64,000 bases of DNA from the NCBI GenBank assembly GCA_005893275.1, contig VBOW01000014.1:1-64000 (forward strand), read 5' to 3'. A program made the translations under genes and the position numbers. The DNA comes from Candidatus Eisenbacteria bacterium (GTDB lineage: Bacteria > Eisenbacteria > RBG-16-71-46 > SZUA-252). The notes under the pieces are model-generated. The model saw nothing but the letters and a program-made list of their open reading frames with translations. It did not search any database and was not told the origin of the DNA. Below are positions 9,436 through 44,995 of the stretch, piece after piece; position 1 is the stretch's first letter; each line of letters opens with the position of its first letter.

Positions 9436-10737
9436 CTACGGGCGCAGGCGGTTCAGCATCCGTGGAAATGGGATCGTCTCCCGGAGGTGCTCGATGCCGC
9501 ACAACCAGGTGAGCGTGCGCTCGATTCCCATCCCGAAACCGCTGTGCGGCACGGAGCCGTAACGCCGGAGGTCGAGGTACCACTCGAAGGCGTCGACCGG
9601 GAGCTTGTGCTCCTGGATCCGCCCGACCAGCCGCTCCAGGCTGTCCTCCCTCTCGCCGCCGCCGACGATCTCCCCATACCCTTCGGGAGCGAGAAGGTCG
9701 CATGAGAGGGAGAGCCGATCGTCGTCCGGATCCCGCTTCATATAGAAGGCCTTCACCGCCGCCGGAAACCTGTGCACAAAGAACGGCCGGTCGTACTGTT
9801 CGGTCAGGGCCGTCTCGTCGGTCGCTCCGAAATCGGCCCCCCACTCGAACGGAAGCGCCTTCTCCTGTTTCAAGACACGCGCCGCCTCGTCGTAAGAAAG
9901 CCTTGGAAACGGGGTCCGGACGCGCTCGAGAGGTGCGGTGTCGCGCTCGAGAACCTTGAGCTCCTCGCGCCGCTCCTCGAGGATCCGGCCCACGATCCCC
10001 TCCACGAAGCGCTCGATCAGATCCATGACGTCGTCCAGCGTGGCGAAAGCCACCTCGGGCTCCACCATCCAAAACTCGATCAGATGCCGCCGGGTCTTGG
10101 ATTTTTCGGCGCGAAAGGTCGGGCCGAAACAGTAGCTCTTCCCGAAGGCCATCGCGGTCGCCTCGTTATAGAGCTGCCCGCTTTGGGTCAGGTACGCCTT
10201 TTCGTCGAAGTACTGGGTCTCGAACAGCGTGGTCGTGCCCTCGCAGGCGGACGGCGTGAAGATCGGCGCGTCGGCAAGGATGAACCCGTCGGCGTCGAGC
10301 CAATCGCGGCAGGCCTGGACAAGCGTGTGGCGGATTTTCAGAACCGCCGCCTGGCGCTGGGACCGTATCCAGAGATGGCGTTGATCCAGAAGGAAGGAGG
10401 GGCCGTGTTCTTTCGGCGTGATCGGGAAGTCGACGCTCGCTCCGACGATCTCGATGCCGCGGAGGGAGATCTCGACGCCGCTCGGCGCGCGCTTGTCCTC
10501 GCGCACGACGCCGGTGACGCGGAGCGAGGATTCCTGCGTCACGGTCGCGCAACGCGCGAAGACCTCTTCGGGAAGCTCGGCTTTTGCCGCGACGCACTGA
10601 ACGGTCCCGCTCCCGTCACGCACGAGAAGGAACTCGAGCTTGCCGCTGGAGCGACGATTGTAGAGCCACCCCTCGAGCAGGACTTCGTCGCCGATTCTCT
10701 CCCGTAGCGCCCCGATCCGGGTCGCTTTCCGACTCAT
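9436..10737 (-). CDS. asnS: Asparaginyl-tRNA synthetase
   Basis: A 433-residue class IIb synthetase that charges tRNA-Asn with asparagine in the cytoplasm. The N-terminal OB-fold anticodon-binding domain runs to about residue 100 ([26 protein letters not shown]). The catalytic core has motif 2 [20 protein letters not shown] and motif 3 [15 protein letters not shown]. The long spacing typical of AsnRS rather than AspRS, the FWMVEPE stretch and the size all fit AsnS. I use the ATG at 10737 because GGAGG sits eight bases before it; a GTG three codons upstream overlaps that site. It is transcribed alone, divergent from the plus-strand pair and ended by a clear terminator. Confidence 0.96.
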
Positions 10738-10794
10738 GGTTCCCACCTCCGCTGCGATGCGATGGATTCGCGGCCCCGAAGCGCCGAGGATAGC

Positions 10795-10849: not shown

Positions 10850-12784
10850 GTGGCGCGAATTGAGCCCTCGAGATCTCGACGCGCATGGCTCAAGCCGCTC
10901 GTTTTCGCGGTGGCGGGCCCGCTGACGCTCGCGCTGGTCGCGCCCCTAGGACCGGCCCCGGTGGAGCTGGCGGCGGCCTATGCCGGTCCGGACGCGGTGC
11001 GGGACGAGCTGGAGCAGATGCGGAACGCGGGACAGATCCGTGCCCTCGCGCCGGCCCAAGCTCGCTATCGCGAGGCGCTCGTATCGCTCGCCAAGGGAGA
11101 GGATCCCGAAGCCGCGCGGCTCCTCGCGGCGGCGGCGGAGTTCGATCCCGAGTACCCCGATCCCCATTTCACGCTCGCGCGGCTTCTCGCGTTCAAGAAC
11201 CCCGAGCGCGCGGTCGGAGAGCTCGGTGAGGCGCTCCGGATCGTGGGCCGGACTTACGCCTGGCAGCGACACCTCCTCGCCAACACGCTGACCGCCTTTC
11301 TCGTGGTCTGGACGGTTGGCCTCCTGGTCGCGATCGCCGGGATCACCCTTCGGCATCTGCCGCATCTGATCCACGTGATTCTCGAGCTGGTCGGCCGCTC
11401 GAAGGGCCGCCTCGCCCGCGGCGGCGCGACGATCATCGCGCTCTCGCCGCTCCTCTGGGGGCTGGGCGCGATTCCCACCGCGACGGTCTATGCCGGGTTG
11501 CTCTCCTTCCGGGTGACCCGGCGCGAGGCGTTTCTGGTAGGGCTCTTCATCGTTTCGGCGATCGCGCTCTCGAGCTTTCTGAGGTCGGTCGCGCCGTGGG
11601 CGGGACCGCCGAGCCTGGAGGAGCCGAGCCTCCTCGTCGATCGTGCGCTCCGCTCGGGCTCCGATCCCGAGATCCGGACCGGGCTCATGGCGCTCGAGTC
11701 GCGGGACCCGGCGGAGCCCCTCTATCCTTTCACCGCGGGGACGATCGCTCGGCGCGAAGGAGATTTGGAGTCCGCGGAGCGCCTGCTCGCCCGGGCGGCC
11801 GCGCTCCGTCCCAACACCGCGTGGACCTTGACCAACCTCGGGAACGTGTACTTCGCGCGCGAGGATTACCCCCGGGCGCACGAGGCCTACGAAGCCGCCG
11901 CGAAAGCAGCGCCGCGGGCGGTCGAGCCGCATTTCAACCTCGCGCAGACCTACACGAAGCAGCTCCTCTTCGCCGAAGCGAACCGAGAACAGTCGATCGC
12001 GTCGTCGCTCGCCTTTGACCGCGTCCGCGACATGAGTCGCATCTCGGCGCCTCAGCTCAATCGCACGGTCATGGAAGCCATGCCCCCGGTCAAGGTGCTC
12101 TGGGATCTCGCGCGCAGGACCGCGCCGGAACGCGGAATCGCGGCCACAGAGGGGAACCCCTACGTCGCCTTTCTCGAGCGGCTCGCGCCGCCGCCCCCGT
12201 TCGCGATCTTTTTTCTCGTCTCCCTCTTTCTTCTCTTCGCGGGGCTGGGACAGATCCTGGGCCGGGCGCTCGCGACGCTCCAGTGCTCGAACTGCCAAAA
12301 GGTGGTCTGCCGCCGCTGCGTCTTCCGCATGCAGCAGCGCGCCTTCTGTGAAGGGTGCTTCGCCGCGGTCAGGGGACTGAAATCGATGGAATTCACCCGG
12401 CTCCTCCTCACCGGGCGGGATCGCCGGGCGGCACGACGCAGGACCTTCTGGGAGACAGCCACGACGTTCCTTCTCCCCGGCGCGGGGCAGATGCTCCGCG
12501 GGGCGAGCTTGAGCGGGTTCCTCGCGATCCTGGTCATGGTCCTGGCAGCGGTGCTCGTGGTTGGAAACGGCTCGCTGGTCCCGTCGGTCGACGTGCTGCC
12601 GCTCAACTCGGCGGGCTGGGCGAAGCGAATCCCCCTGACCCTGCTCTTCGCCCTGACCTACGCGCTCACCGTCGCGCGCTACTACGCGAAGACCTCGGCC
12701 AAGGTGCCGAGCATCACCCACGGCATCGGCCGCCTCTCGGAACGCACCGCCCCGCGCGCGAAGGCCGAGGGAGGCAGGCTCTAG
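10850..12784 (+). CDS. Multi-pass membrane protein with TPR repeats and a zinc-ribbon segment
   Basis: A 644-residue protein I do not recognise as a named family. In order: an N-terminal signal/anchor (about 17-43); a first TPR-like region; membrane segments at about 145-165, 195-220 and 225-245; a second TPR block (AEPLYPFTAGTIARREGD, WTLTNLGNVYFAREDYPRAHEAYEAAAK); a membrane helix; a six-cysteine cluster (CSNCQ, VCRRC, FCEGC) around residues 480-505 that should bind zinc; two final membrane helices. The start is GTG with no ribosome site but a well-placed promoter. The stop directly abuts the ATG of the DUF4388 gene, so the two are coupled. Possible role in a surface or motility assembly, by analogy only. 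Confidence 0.8.
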   Translation: MARIEPSRSRRAWLKPLVFAVAGPLTLALVAPLGPAPVELAAAYAGPDAVRDELEQMRNAGQIRALAPAQARYREALVSLAKGEDPEAARLLAAAAEFDPEYPDPHFTLARLLAFKNPERAVGELGEALRIVGRTYAWQRHLLANTLTAFLVVWTVGLLVAIAGITLRHLPHLIHVILELVGRSKGRLARGGATIIALSPLLWGLGAIPTATVYAGLLSFRVTRREAFLVGLFIVSAIALSSFLRSVAPWAGPPSLEEPSLLVDRALRSGSDPEIRTGLMALESRDPAEPLYPFTAGTIARREGDLESAERLLARAAALRPNTAWTLTNLGNVYFAREDYPRAHEAYEAAAKAAPRAVEPHFNLAQTYTKQLLFAEANREQSIASSLAFDRVRDMSRISAPQLNRTVMEAMPPVKVLWDLARRTAPERGIAATEGNPYVAFLERLAPPPPFAIFFLVSLFLLFAGLGQILGRALATLQCSNCQKVVCRRCVFRMQQRAFCEGCFAAVRGLKSMEFTRLLLTGRDRRAARRRTFWETATTFLLPGAGQMLRGASLSGFLAILVMVLAAVLVVGNGSLVPSVDVLPLNSAGWAKRIPLTLLFALTYALTVARYYAKTSAKVPSITHGIGRLSERTAPRAKAEGGRL

Positions 12785-13861
12785 ATGGCCCTCCAAGGAA
12801 ACCTCGACGATTTCAGCCTCCCGGAGATTCTCCAGCTGATCTCCGTCCAGCAAAAATCGGGGGTGCTCAAGCTCACGGCAGGCGCGGACGTCGCGGTCAT
12901 CTTCTTCGAAGGGGGCCGGGTCGTCTCGACCCGCGACCGGCGCCGGAACACGCGCGACCCCCTCAAGACGTTTCTGGTTCAAACCGGCTTCATCACCGAG
13001 GCCCAGCTCAAGCAGATCGAGACCATCGAGGCCGAGAGCCGCCGCGAGCTCACCGACATCCTCCTGACCGGCAATTACGTCGCGAGCGATCAGTTGACGG
13101 ACGCCTTGGAAAGCCAGATTCAGGACACGTTCCACCAGCTCCTGACTTGGAAGGCGGGCACCTATCACTTCTCAGGGGACGCCAGGACCGTGCCCAAGTT
13201 CGCGGCGAACGTCCGAATGAACACCGAAGGCCTTCTCATGGAGTCGATGCGACGGCTGGACGAGTTCGTCCGCTACAAGGAGGTCCTCACGTCGCCGGCG
13301 ATGGTGCTTCGACCGAAGCCGCTCGCGACCCCGCCGAAGGACATGACCACGCCCGAGCAGCGCGTGCTTCCGCTCGTGGACGGCCTGCGGCCTCTACGCG
13401 ACATCGTCGCGCAGGCGAAGCTGGTGGAGTTCGAAGTCTACGAGGCGCTCCACCATCTGCTCGAGCTGGGCGTGGTCGAGATCTCCCTCGGCGCGGCGCC
13501 CGCCAAAGTCACTCCGATCGCCAAGGAGGAGGCCGCGGCGCCTCCTCCGCGGAGCATGGCGATTCCGGTCGCGGCCCTCTTTCTCCTGCTCTCGATCGCG
13601 ATCGGAACCCGGGCCACCCCGAAGCTCTACTCCCATGTGGAGCGGACGGCGCACCGCGCCCCCGCGGGCTCTTCGAGCATCGACGAGTCCCAGCGTTTGG
13701 CCCTCGCGCTCGAGGTCTACCGCTCCATCCGAGGCGAGTACCCCACCGAGCTTCGGGCGATGTCGCGCGAAGGGTACCTGCCCCCCGCCGCCGTGTCCTC
13801 CTTCTACCGACGCTTCGACTACCAAAGCGACGGGACCAGCTACTCCAAGATCGCCCACTAG
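12785..13861 (+). CDS. DUF4388 (PATAN-like) protein with membrane helix and pseudopilin-like tail
   Basis: A 358-residue protein. Residues 1-130 are a DUF4388 domain (LQGNLDDFSLPEILQLISVQQKSGVLKL, FFEGGRVVSTRDR, then a GxYHFSGD-type end). A winged-helix-like second segment lies at about 180-235 (QRVLPLVDGLRPLRDIVAQA), a membrane helix at about 258-275, and a C-terminal stretch of about 70 residues contains RGEYPTELRAMSREGYLP and FDYQSDGTSYSKI. That last part resembles the periplasmic tail of major pseudopilins (GspG-like). DUF4388 proteins occur with two-component and gliding/pilus systems. The ATG immediately follows the previous gene's TAG. Convergent with waaF, 10 bp apart. Confidence 0.85.
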   Translation: MALQGNLDDFSLPEILQLISVQQKSGVLKLTAGADVAVIFFEGGRVVSTRDRRRNTRDPLKTFLVQTGFITEAQLKQIETIEAESRRELTDILLTGNYVASDQLTDALESQIQDTFHQLLTWKAGTYHFSGDARTVPKFAANVRMNTEGLLMESMRRLDEFVRYKEVLTSPAMVLRPKPLATPPKDMTTPEQRVLPLVDGLRPLRDIVAQAKLVEFEVYEALHHLLELGVVEISLGAAPAKVTPIAKEEAAAPPPRSMAIPVAALFLLLSIAIGTRATPKLYSHVERTAHRAPAGSSSIDESQRLALALEVYRSIRGEYPTELRAMSREGYLPPAAVSSFYRRFDYQSDGTSYSKIAH

Positions 13862-13871
13862 GACGTCCGGC

Positions 13872-14891
13872 TTACGAGCTCGCGGCGATGAGCCCGCCCG
13901 CGGCGCGGATCGCCTCATCCGGCTGGATCGAACGAAGGCATCCGTACCCGATCGGACACGTGCGGCGGAAACAGGGGGAGCATGGGTAGCCGGCGTACAG
14001 GTTCCGCACCCAGGGGGCATCCGCGGCGCTCCAGACGGGGCTCGTCGATCCGAACACCGCGACGGTCGGCCTCCCGAGCGCTGCCCCGAGATGCATGACG
14101 CCCGAGTCGTTCGACACCACGAGATCCGCTCCGGCGAGGAGCCCGGTCAGCGTGGAAAGATCGGTGGCGTCGACGAGGCTTCGAGCCGAGCCCCCCGCCA
14201 TACGCTCCGTCTCCGCCGCCGGTACCACGTCGTCCTGCGTGCCGACAAGAATCGAGGTCACGCCGAAACGCGAGTCGAGATGCCTCGCCACCGCCGCGAA
14301 GCGCTCGGGATCCCACCGCTTCGCGGGGCCGTAGGCGGCACCCGGCGCCAGGACGGCGTACGGCGCGCCGCCGCGCCCGACGCCCCGGAGCAGCTCCACC
14401 GCGGCCCGACGCTCTTCCGGGAGCGCGGTGAGCCGCGGCACAGGATCGCGCACCGAGAGCCCCGCCGCGCGCGCGAGCGCCGCGTACTCTTCGACCCGGG
14501 GCGCGGCCCGGGATGGCGCGGAGCGCGGGACCCGCCGCGTGAGCAGGGCGCCGCGAAGCTCGGCCGCATATCCGATCCGGTCCGGGATCAGAGCGAGGGC
14601 GGCGAGGATGGCCGACGAGAGCGAGTCCGTGAGGAGGAGGGCCGCGCCCGGGCGCGCGCGCCTCAGCGCGCCGGCCGCGGCGAACCGGCGCTCGCGGGAC
14701 CAGGGGACGAACTCGGCCGAAGGGAACCGGGGCACGAGGAGCGGCCCGAAGCCGGCGGGACCGAGAAAAATCACCCGGCGCGACGGATCCTCCGCCGCCG
14801 CCGCGACGACGGGAAGGGCCTGGACGAGATCCCCGAGCCAATTGGGAAGGCGGACCAGAAGCGGACGCGGTGGGGAAGCCGACGAGGACAC
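13872..14891 (-). CDS. waaF: ADP-heptose:LPS heptosyltransferase (GT9), WaaF-like
   Basis: A 339-residue GT-B fold glycosyltransferase of family 9 that adds L-glycero-D-manno-heptose to the LPS inner core at the cytoplasmic face. It has LLVRLPNWLGDLVQALPVV, the donor-site APGAAYGPAKRWDPERFAAVA, and VVSNDSGVMHLGAALGRPTVAVFGSTSP, all diagnostic of heptosyltransferase II. The C-terminus carries four cysteines (CSPCFRRTCPIGYGC) as in many GT9 enzymes. It follows kbl by 13 bp, so it probably shares the tdh-kbl transcript, an unusual pairing. A second GT9 enzyme lies at 18206-19288. Confidence 0.9.
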   Translation of the reverse strand: MSSSASPPRPLLVRLPNWLGDLVQALPVVAAAAEDPSRRVIFLGPAGFGPLLVPRFPSAEFVPWSRERRFAAAGALRRARPGAALLLTDSLSSAILAALALIPDRIGYAAELRGALLTRRVPRSAPSRAAPRVEEYAALARAAGLSVRDPVPRLTALPEERRAAVELLRGVGRGGAPYAVLAPGAAYGPAKRWDPERFAAVARHLDSRFGVTSILVGTQDDVVPAAETERMAGGSARSLVDATDLSTLTGLLAGADLVVSNDSGVMHLGAALGRPTVAVFGSTSPVWSAADAPWVRNLYAGYPCSPCFRRTCPIGYGCLRSIQPDEAIRAAGGLIAASS

Positions 14892-42898: not shown

Positions 42899-44866
42899 TC
42901 AGCGGCGGGACCTCCTGGACGTGCGGGCGTTCCCTCCGGCGAGAACCAGCGGCTCGGGCGAGAGCTCGGGCTCCGCGTCCCGCTCGCGACGCGTGCCGCA
43001 GGCCGGACAATAGTCCCAATTCGGATCGACGCGGCGATCGCACTTCAAGCACGTGGCGGCGATCGTATGCCCGCAGTGCGGACAGAAGTGGTACTCGGAC
43101 GCGACCGGCAGGTGGCACGCGGGGCAGAGCCGCGCCGACTCCTCTTCGTAATACACCACCCGCCGGAGCTCCTCCAGGCTCGTCTCCCCCGCGAGCACCT
43201 TGGCCAACCCGTCCTCGCCGATGGGGATCATGCCCGCCTGGACCGCCTCCGCGCGGATCATCGATTCCGCCGCTCCGGCCGCGATCAATCTCCGGATCGG
43301 GTCGTCCAATTCGAGAACCTCGAAGATCCCGGTCCTTCCCCGGTATCCGGTCTGGCCGCAGTACTCGCAGCCGACCGGGCGGTGGAGGCCGACGTCCTGT
43401 GCGTCACGGCTCGAGATGCCGAGAATCCGGAGCTCGTCCCCCGCCGGGATGTATGGATCCTTGCATTTCGGGCAGAGGACCCGCACGAGCCTCATCGAGA
43501 TCACGCTGATGAGACTCGATGCCACCATGTAGGGCTGGAGACCCAGGTCGACGAGACGGGTCACGGCCGAGGGGGCGTCGTTGGTGTGCACGGTCGAGAG
43601 AACGAGGTGCCCCGTGATCGAGGCGCGGAAGGCGATCTGGGCGGTTTCGAGGTCGCGGACCTCCCCGATCATCATGATGTCGGGGTCCTGGCGCAGCATG
43701 GCGCGCAGGATCGCCGCAAAAGTCTTCTTGCTCTTCTCATCGACCTGGACCTGGTTGATGCCCGCGATCTGGTATTCGACCGGGTCTTCCACCGTGATGA
43801 TGTTCTTGGTCACGGTGTGGATCTGCTGGAGGAGCGAATAGAGAAGGGTGCTCTTGCCGCTGCCGGTCGGACCGGTGACGATCACGATTCCCTGAGGCCG
43901 CTTGCCGTAGGCCCGGATCTTCCCGAGGTCGGATTCCGAAAGCCCCAGCGATTCGAGGTGAAGCGCGGAGCGCTCCTGATCCACGATCCGGATCACGACC
44001 TTCTCGCCGTGGGCCGTGGGGAGCGTCGAGACGCGCAGGTCGATGCGCCGCCCGCTGACCTCCACCCGGAAGCTCCCGTCCTGGGGCAGGCGCTTTTCGG
44101 CGATGTCGAGCGTCGCGAGGATCTTGATCCGAGACACGAGCGCTCCCTGCGTCCATTTGGGGAGGCGTTCCAGGTCTTGCAGAAGCCCGTCCACGCGGCA
44201 TCGCACCCCGACCCCCTTCTCCTGGGGCTCGATGTGGATGTCGCTCGCGCGCATCTCGACCGCCCGGGTGATGAGCCAGTTCGCGAGCCTCACGATGGGA
44301 GGGCCCGAGCTGATTTTCATCAGCTCGTCGATGTTCTCCTCCCCTTCTTCCGGAACGATCTCGCGAACCTCGACCGAATCGTTCTTGATGATGTTCTCGA
44401 GGATCTCTACGACCGAGGCGTCGATGTGGTAGTACTTCGCGATCGCTTCGACGATCTCGGAGGGGGGCGCGAGCACCGGCCGCACGAAATATCCGCTCTG
44501 GAACTTGATGTCCTCGAGCGCCTGGGGATTCAGAGGGTCGGCCAGCGCCACGCGGATCGTGCTTCGGTTCTCGAGCTCGATCGGAATGGCGGTGTGTTTC
44601 TTGGCGAGGTCCTCGCGCAAGAGCCCGATGACCTGCTCGTCGATCGCGATGCTCTGCAACTCGACGATCGGAAGCCCGAGCTGCTGGTGAAGGACGCGGC
44701 AGATGTCCCCCTCGCTGACCATGCCCTGCCGCGTCAGGATCTGACCCAGCGGCTCTTTGGTTTGTCGTTGCCGCCTCAGCGCTTCCCTGAGCTGCTGGTC
44801 GGTGATGAGCCCCGCCTCGAGCAGGTACTCCCCCAGCTTCTTCCGCGCGGCGTTGGATTCGGACAC
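42899..44866 (-). CDS. PilB/GspE-type secretion ATPase with C-terminal double zinc ribbon
   Basis: A 655-residue hexameric ATPase of type IV pilus/type II secretion. It has an N-terminal MshEN domain (LGEYLLEAGLITDQQLREALRRQRQ), Walker A IVTGPTGSGKSTLLYSL, Asp box TVEDPVEYQI, Walker B RQDPDIMMIGEVRD, His box TGHLVLSTVHTND, and the usual four-cysteine site (CPKC...CEYC). It then continues with an unusual tail of about 95 residues: CPAC...CPHC and CLKC...CPAC, two more zinc ribbons, then a basic end. GTG start 44866 is supported by GGGGGAG six bases before. No pilin or PilC/D genes are in the window. Confidence 0.92.
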   Translation of the reverse strand: MSESNAARKKLGEYLLEAGLITDQQLREALRRQRQTKEPLGQILTRQGMVSEGDICRVLHQQLGLPIVELQSIAIDEQVIGLLREDLAKKHTAIPIELENRSTIRVALADPLNPQALEDIKFQSGYFVRPVLAPPSEIVEAIAKYYHIDASVVEILENIIKNDSVEVREIVPEEGEENIDELMKISSGPPIVRLANWLITRAVEMRASDIHIEPQEKGVGVRCRVDGLLQDLERLPKWTQGALVSRIKILATLDIAEKRLPQDGSFRVEVSGRRIDLRVSTLPTAHGEKVVIRIVDQERSALHLESLGLSESDLGKIRAYGKRPQGIVIVTGPTGSGKSTLLYSLLQQIHTVTKNIITVEDPVEYQIAGINQVQVDEKSKKTFAAILRAMLRQDPDIMMIGEVRDLETAQIAFRASITGHLVLSTVHTNDAPSAVTRLVDLGLQPYMVASSLISVISMRLVRVLCPKCKDPYIPAGDELRILGISSRDAQDVGLHRPVGCEYCGQTGYRGRTGIFEVLELDDPIRRLIAAGAAESMIRAEAVQAGMIPIGEDGLAKVLAGETSLEELRRVVYYEEESARLCPACHLPVASEYHFCPHCGHTIAATCLKCDRRVDPNWDYCPACGTRRERDAEPELSPEPLVLAGGNARTSRRSRR

Positions 44867-44995
44867 CGAGGGCTCCCCCTTCGACCTGGTCCATGGATGG
44901 GTCACGCCCCAGATCGGCCGTTGGGCTGCTGATCTTGACCGGGGAATCGGAGGGCGGGACGGCCCTCTGGGCGGAAGGCCCTCGGGGAGCGCGGG

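Follow-up and report, generated by a model that had tools for sequence, protein, structure and literature searches.

The described systems closest to the locus reported here are the type II pseudopilin GspG; the motor proteins MshE, PilF and PilB with their MshEN N-domain; the tetratricopeptide repeat (TPR) proteins PilW, Tgl and GltE, of which PilW is a lipoprotein or pilotin; and the PATAN regulators PixE, PixG and PatA, with which DUF4388 presumably belongs. In Synechocystis, interaction of PATAN domains with PilB, the motor of the pilus, has been reported (PMC10519157, PMC7690835, PMC9090330). The locus consists of two genes, G1 and G2, in a 64,000-nucleotide stretch of DNA from a Candidatus Eisenbacteria bacterium (GenBank assembly GCA_005893275.1, contig VBOW01000014.1, positions 1 to 64,000 of the forward strand), hereafter the window. 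G1 encodes a polytopic TPR/zinc-ribbon membrane protein and G2 a protein in which DUF4388 is followed by a winged-helix-like segment, a single membrane helix and a GspG-like tail. No description of the pair was found among the papers listed in searches of the open-access full-text literature (subscription papers lay outside the search), nor was a GspG-like tail on a cytoplasmic MshEN protein reported there; DUF4388 was found in that literature only as a gene-table entry, and papers naming both MshEN and PATAN dealt with cyanobacterial motility. Genomes and loci are designated below by G and L, respectively, with three digits.

Anatomy of the two proteins

G1 and G2 begin at GTG and ATG codons, respectively, and no bases separate the stop of the first from the start of the second. 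Open reading frame (ORF) coordinates were checked and are given in Table 1.

The tail of G2 is related to GspG at the level of the family, as judged by sequence profiles. Of 78 aligned G2 proteins, 39 matched T2SSG at E ≤ 1 (best 1.7e-7) and 26 matched the gspG model TIGR01710 at the same threshold (best 1.1e-5). A profile of the tail alone, built from 77 members (alignment A6, from which L103 was excluded for its degenerate tail), gave 17 matches in the PDB up to an E-value of 10, the best eight of which were GspG or type II pseudopilins (9.1e-4 to 0.047). Applied to genome stretches, this profile retrieved pilin-type GspG proteins (L206-L208), one of which, L207, was confirmed by Pfam as T2SSG plus N_methyl. 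The tail of one homologue from the Eisenbacteria class, hereafter the class (G028), itself exceeded the T2SSG cut-off (24.5 against 21 bits). The tail of the window protein alone had no direct Pfam match; its link to GspG comes through the family. In an AlphaFold2 model generated from 78 sequences (alignment A4, which leaves out L068, L070 and L122 with lengths outside 300-480), the mean predicted local distance difference test score (pLDDT) was 90.2 and the predicted template modelling score (pTM) 0.65; residues 301-358 were modelled at pLDDT 94-97 as a helix, short helices and two strands. By the sequence profiles, the GspG-like end proposed in the original prediction is borne out for the family; the fusion of DUF4388 to a membrane helix is also borne out.

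Prepilin-like (class III) patterns were sought in the stretch aligned to G2 residues 230-289. Neither of two patterns was present in any of the 78 proteins; among four control pilins, the stricter pattern found three and the looser all four. The tail was never N-terminal in the aligned proteins. Because no prepilin-like pattern occurs, the tail domain should stay anchored, and on the same ground G2 was ruled out as a true pilin. It is very improbable that G2 nonetheless enters a filament as a true minor pseudopilin belonging to some unrecognised type II secretion or pilus system: the GspG-like tail speaks for such a role, against which stand the missing pattern and a folded cytoplasmic part of approximately 240 residues ahead of the helix.

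This cytoplasmic part opens with DUF4388, which scored 109.4 bits against a PF14332 cut-off of 25 and was matched by all 78 members. On profile evidence, an insertion in this domain has the two-motif MshEN-like fold of motor N-domains. Over residues 55-113, the G2 family profile matched PilF (5.9e-18, several repeats), MshE (1.4e-9) and PilB in the PDB, and an MshEN-like match at E ≤ 1 was obtained for 59 of the 78 members. The model aligned with MshE (5htl_B) over 60 residues with a Z-score of 8.8, a root mean square deviation of 3.0 and 30% identity; since such a Z-score is about typical of the best found for models without a clear match, the assignment rests on the sequence profile. The window protein by itself aligned with MshE 5htl without gaps, but with an E-value of only 0.13, and scored 29.1 bits, below the NF053729 cut-off of 38.

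The RLG motifs that begin the MshEN repeats are replaced in the window protein by PLK in repeat 1 (closing residue E) and ELT in repeat 2 (closing residue Q). Classical-motif binding of cyclic di-GMP (c-di-GMP) was accordingly ruled out for this protein. Within the family, RLG was kept in repeat 2 by 26 of the 78 members, in repeat 1 by seven and in both by five, with glycine at the third place of both repeats in 34. Myxococcota (mainly in repeat 2) and Acidobacteriota have largely retained the motif; the aligned Eisenbacteria and Krumholzibacteriota members lack it, as do the two NC10 members.

The winged-helix-like segment aligned best with chains of the GATOR1/KICSTOR and SEA complexes (Z-scores of 8.3-8.9 over 70-74 residues), a likeness that may reflect merely the common winged helix-turn-helix arrangement.

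The AlphaFold2 model of G1, generated from 69 sequences (alignment A5, without eight fragmentary or split genes), had a mean pLDDT of 88.6 and a pTM of 0.85. From the N-terminal helix onward, a helical region leads into the membrane block, which is followed by the TPR domain; a further membrane helix then precedes the small cysteine knot, and two more membrane helices close the protein, with a conserved PG motif in the alignments immediately ahead of them. Foldseek matches, among those listed, were TPR proteins and one designed membrane protein. The cysteines are spaced C479-x2-C-x4-C-x2-C-x9-C-x2-C503. All six were kept without exception in the 21 class homologues aligned, and C479, C482, C500 and C503 in all 69 sequences of the wider alignment A5; a six-cysteine spacing was present in 60 of 76 G1 genes (two of them split), and a CxxC..CxxC pair was kept in 15 of 16 further G1 genes, L225 being without even one knuckle pair. 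The pattern is that of zinc-ribbon-type CxxC...CxxC knuckles, with putative metal binding. The fusion of TPRs, membrane helices and a six-cysteine cluster anticipated for G1 was thus confirmed.

Residues 475-552 of G1 contain 15 K+R and 4 D+E, and residues 572-589 no K+R and 1 D+E. This charge distribution would place the zinc ribbon and C-terminus on the inside and, when helices are counted, both TPR regions on the outside. PilW, Tgl and GltE were ruled out as identities of G1, with scores of 28, 22 and 17 bits against cut-offs of 154, 225 and 225.

Table 1. Positions in the window of the two genes, their predicted domains and a flanking gene.
Feature	Position	Strand	Basis or remark
Asparaginyl-tRNA synthetase (AsnRS)	9436-10746	-	Synteny marker, outside the claimed function; lies divergently beside the pair in many loci of Eisenbacteria and Latescibacterota
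G1, polytopic TPR/zinc-ribbon membrane protein, 644 amino acids	10850-12784	+	
G1 first helical (TPR-like) region, residues 47-134, predicted periplasmic	10988-11251	+	AlphaFold2 helices; topology from charges and helix count
G1 membrane block, residues 136-251, short hydrophobic helical hairpin between two long helices	11255-11602	+	Hydropathy, AlphaFold2
G1 TPR domain, residues 259-397, predicted periplasmic	11624-12040	+	Pfam TPR_11 (3.7e-12), AlphaFold2, Foldseek TPR matches
G1 membrane helix, residues 451-474	12200-12271	+	Hydropathy, AlphaFold2
G1 six-cysteine zinc-ribbon-like knot, C479-C503, predicted cytoplasmic	12284-12358	+	Alignments, AlphaFold2, charges
G1 last two membrane helices, residues 553-571 and 590-618	12506-12703	+	Hydropathy, alignments, AlphaFold2
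G2, DUF4388 (MshEN-like)-winged helix-membrane helix-pseudopilin-like protein, 358 amino acids	12785-13861	+	
G2 DUF4388 domain, residues 4-160	12794-13264	+	PF14332 (1.5e-31)
G2 MshEN-like helical insertion, residues 57-116, c-di-GMP contact residues lost	12953-13132	+	Profile, structure, motif count
G2 winged-helix-like segment, residues 166-237	13280-13495	+	Family matches, AlphaFold2 model, structure comparison
G2 single membrane helix, residues 257-275, no prepilin-like pattern	13553-13609	+	Hydropathy, AlphaFold2, pattern searches
G2 GspG-like pseudopilin tail, residues 296-358, predicted periplasmic	13670-13858	+	Profiles, AlphaFold2

Conservation of the pair and variants of the partner

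Among 59 genomes searched, a G1 match at E < 1e-15 was found in 40 of 47 class genomes and in none of the 12 outside the class; the class genomes without a match were G009, G012, G017, G022, G024, G027 and G044. Adjacency was read by hand: 38 of these 40 genomes have G2 downstream of G1 in the same orientation, and in G029 and G043 the contig ends at this point. The gap between the genes ranged from -41 to +30 bases at the 29 loci examined closely.

A scan of contigs yielded 159 stretches encoding a relative of G2, the best 80 of which were kept. According to their record titles these derive from Eisenbacteria, Latescibacterota, Krumholzibacteriota, Acidobacteriota, Myxococcota, NC10, Gemmatimonadetes, a Thermodesulfobacteriota and others. 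G1 was present upstream of G2 at 76 of the 80, which is no unbiased rate because the loci were chosen by G2 similarity. In three of the four exceptions G2 lies at a contig edge (L070, L075, L082), and the fourth, L122, is without both G1 and a tail match. Gaps of 839 and 892 at L065 and L100, where G1 is split into two frames, are poorly measured, and both loci were counted as paired. The closest named homologues of G2 occur in metagenome-assembled genomes of Candidatus Eisenbacteria, with 86% identity in L065. At the break in the split G1 of this locus (G003:C52:3133-3357) lies an inverted copy of G2 residues 15-89 (84% identity), probably an assembly fault.

Nine genomes with a full-length match were added by a later profile search, and G1 lay upstream in eight of them, the exception being L216. 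Directly upstream of the G1-less, G2-like gene of this locus (G151), a gene at L216:2097-3650 (plus strand) encodes an MshEN domain fused to a TonB C-terminal domain. Among named isolates, the pair is present in Myxococcus and Archangium (L126, L134, L135, L143) and is thus open to ordinary genetics. Anatomy and pairing are both firm. The pair is old and conserved well beyond Eisenbacteria. As a two-gene unit kept side by side in several phyla, it likely does something basic. Neither an unrelated C-terminal fold nor a lack of conservation, the two outcomes named in the original prediction as counting against it, appeared.

Twelve further loci gave partial or tail matches. G1 stands beside the match at eight (L221, L222, L223, L225, L226, L227, L230, L232) and was not seen in the stretches examined at L224, L228, L229 and L231. 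At three of the eight (L221, L222, L223), G1 is followed by a tail-only partner, consisting of a signal or membrane helix and the tail; these loci lie in G197 and G335, which belong to one family, and in G137, which belongs to another. The partner in G137 may be a lipoprotein, and L223 exceeded the T2SSG cut-off (21.7 against 21 bits). In G235 (L230), G1 is followed by a partner without DUF4388; Pfam gave no DUF4388 match for the partners in L221, L222 and L230. PhoH adjoins the G1 loci of G197, G335 and G235 as it does those of Myxococcota, which suggests that L221, L222 and L230 represent the same locus. Given these partners, G1 together with an anchored tail seems to vary less than the rest of the pair, and DUF4388 looks optional; the loci with a missing or degenerate tail described below (L232 and L103 among them) count against this. 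GspG-like tails were also seen without a G1 match nearby, on a short anchored protein (L224, G219), on a lipoprotein-like protein with two GspG-like regions (L229, G186) and on a large protein (L231, G144); from these the tail looks like a reused module. The tail-only version, the spread beyond Eisenbacteria, the MshEN-like fold within DUF4388, the winged-helix segment and the lack of a prepilin signal all go beyond what was originally predicted.

Gene neighbourhoods and the possible role of the pair

In the window, the pair is flanked by two minus-strand genes, the divergent AsnRS and a convergent family-9 heptosyltransferase (13872-14891), in agreement with the description of two coupled plus-strand genes amid minus-strand genes. 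Neighbours identified elsewhere were UvrA, UbiA, a polysaccharide deacetylase, an M16 peptidase, PNPase and S15 in L073 (Latescibacterota); MazG, DUF1844, DnaK, Hsp20 and a sigma-70 factor in L121 (Acidobacteriota); HtrA, a sigma-70 factor and RmuC in L132 (NC10); and, in L134 (Myxococcus), PhoH and YbeY by model and LeuS, an LptE-like protein, S20, MazG and an HD protein by reading of the sequences. A first clustering of neighbours gave many clusters mixing spurious frames of GC-rich DNA, and only its AsnRS group was used; the later clusterings used a simple gene caller that picked up G2 in 65 loci, compared with 80 found by profile. AsnRS recurred in many loci of Eisenbacteria and Latescibacterota, M16-PNPase-S15 in loci of Krumholzibacteriota, and PhoH downstream of G2 in loci of Myxococcota. 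A small protein (cluster c19), identified by Pfam as DUF1844 in L121:5420-5980 (plus strand), lies directly upstream of G1 in eight Acidobacteriota loci. A third conserved operon member was considered and dropped, as the neighbours change by lineage.

The window also contains a PilB/GspE-type ATPase (MshEN plus T2SSE; 42899-44905, minus strand) with a C-terminal double zinc ribbon (DZR, E-value 8.4e-10). We know of no such fusion in classical PilB, and no further pilus gene was found in the ten ORFs scanned around it.

Some of the neighbours raise the possibility that the pair is an envelope-stress or protein-quality sensor or scaffold unrelated to pili, its pseudopilin fold being a reused periplasmic module. 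The pair precedes DnaK, Hsp20 and the sigma-70 family factor in L121, with a DnaK cluster downstream in six of the eight Acidobacteriota loci with DUF1844; it precedes HtrA and the sigma factor in L132 and lies between MazG and PhoH/YbeY in L134. The GspG-like tails of L224, L229 and L231 point the same way. However, neighbour sets vary by lineage and resemble ordinary housekeeping synteny, as with AsnRS and heptosyltransferase here and M16, PNPase and S15 in Latescibacterota (in Krumholzibacteriota by clustering), and MshEN and GspG parts belong to pilus and secretion machines. This explanation is considered unlikely. A study of Nostoc describes a DnaK system that works with pilus motors (PMC9239167); set beside the Acidobacteriota neighbourhood, the analogy is suggestive, no more.

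Slightly less probable still is that the pair serves cell polarity or the biogenesis of the envelope as a general scaffold in the inner membrane, with PATAN/DUF4388 linking it to MglA/MglB-type polarity factors. PATAN genes are reported to lie near some mglA and mglB genes (PMC4316618), and in Myxococcus SgmX is reported to co-occur with two PATAN proteins (PMC11580455); neither report could be mapped to G2. No mglA- or mglB-type gene was recognised among the annotated neighbours, and the existence of tail-only partners without DUF4388 also argues against this role.

Co-occurrence with PilB was assessed in 338 genomes outside the class, with match classes read by hand among the matches listed (to approximately E 3e-9) and a full-length G2 match defined as reaching from position 35 or less to 170 or more of alignment A7. 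PilB was over its cut-off in 34 of 38 genomes with full-length G2 and in 107 of the 300 others (p = 1.2e-10, uncorrected for phylogeny), where the cut-off was taken as E ≤ 1e-203 if unlisted, so that G170, G176, G250 and G313 were assigned in this way. This co-occurrence fits a link to pili.

The reading we tentatively favour, as possible though short of probable, is that the pair forms a membrane scaffold or adaptor for a pilus- or secretion-like machine. G1 and G2 would constitute one inner-membrane complex by direct contact. G1 would act as a platform with its TPR regions toward the periplasm and its zinc ribbon toward the cytoplasm, and G2 as a permanently anchored pseudopilin-like subunit whose periplasmic tail is held by the TPRs of G1. 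The one helix of G2 would connect this tail to a cytoplasmic winged-helix and DUF4388/MshEN-like module that binds partners. The complex would thus link a machine of the pilus or type II secretion kind to control from the cytoplasm. Such control might act through c-di-GMP in Myxococcota and Acidobacteriota, which largely retain the MshEN motif, and through protein contacts only in Eisenbacteria. If true, this would be an unnoticed way to control such machines.

A more specific proposal, which we regard as doubtful, is that the TPR/zinc-ribbon platform holds a non-cleavable, non-polymerising pseudopilin that serves in the periplasm as a fixed sensor or plug and is connected to a cytoplasmic GspE/PilB-type N-domain, the whole being a stand-alone control element that reads or caps the pseudopilins of pilus or secretion machines.

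Several results weigh against the scaffold or adaptor reading. Of the neighbours annotated or read (in the window, L073, L109, L121, L132 and L134, a part of all neighbours), none was recognised as a gene for pili, type II secretion or gliding. PilB was over its cut-off in 30 of 44 genomes with a partial G2 match as against 77 of 256 with none, where the partial class includes G129, G145 and G283, each holding G1 and full-length G2, and G137, G197 and G335, with G1 and a tail-only partner, stand as first classed. Some partial-match genomes in the count thus hold the pair; since partial-match genomes are also richer in PilB, the link may not be specific to G2. PilB-family ATPases were found at E ≤ 0.001 in all 59 searched relatives, so that their presence has no discriminating power within the class. 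The tail was degenerate in L103, and the class tail profile gave values above E 1e-3 in seven of 80 loci (one cut by a contig end). Full-length G2 occurs in G151 (L216) with no G1 within the 9 kb examined, and in L232 G1 stands beside a DUF4388 protein with a membrane helix but no tail match. Foldseek with G2 gave no PDB match at E ≤ 0.001, and the tail was barely covered by fold searches. Of the checks originally suggested, fold prediction delivered models of both proteins, including the tail, with little from fold comparison of the tail itself; the co-occurrence with PilB was statistical and graded, and no linked pilus or gliding gene was recognised among the neighbours annotated. The proposed surface or motility apparatus was not supported by the neighbourhoods annotated.

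Comparison with known systems

G1 shares TPR repeats with PilW (TIGR02521), Tgl and GltE. It differs from all three in being polytopic with a zinc-ribbon-like knot; Tgl and GltE are lipoproteins according to their models. G2 shares PF14332 with the DUF4388/PATAN regulators PixE, PixG and PatA, from which it is distinguished by a membrane anchor and a predicted periplasmic tail; a Pfam search of the window protein detected no receiver domain.

With MshE, PilF and PilB, G2 has in common two tandem 24-residue helical motifs. These are inserted in DUF4388, with no ATPase attached, and the equivalent of MshE Gly11, a change of which reportedly abolishes binding (PMC5013675), is not kept in the window protein.

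The likeness to GspG (PF08334, TIGR01710) lies in a helix followed by ALxxYxxxxGxYPxxLxxLV..GxL....Y....Y.L, and some homologues of G2 in NC10 and Acidobacteriota share the DPWGxxYxY and GPDG-type end of GspG. Compared with GspG, the window tail is shorter and without DPWG, and G2 has no prepilin-like pattern, its tail sitting behind a cytoplasmic regulatory part. G2 would thus join, across the membrane, a motor-type N-domain and a pseudopilin, modules that belong to the two ends of pilus and type II secretion machines.

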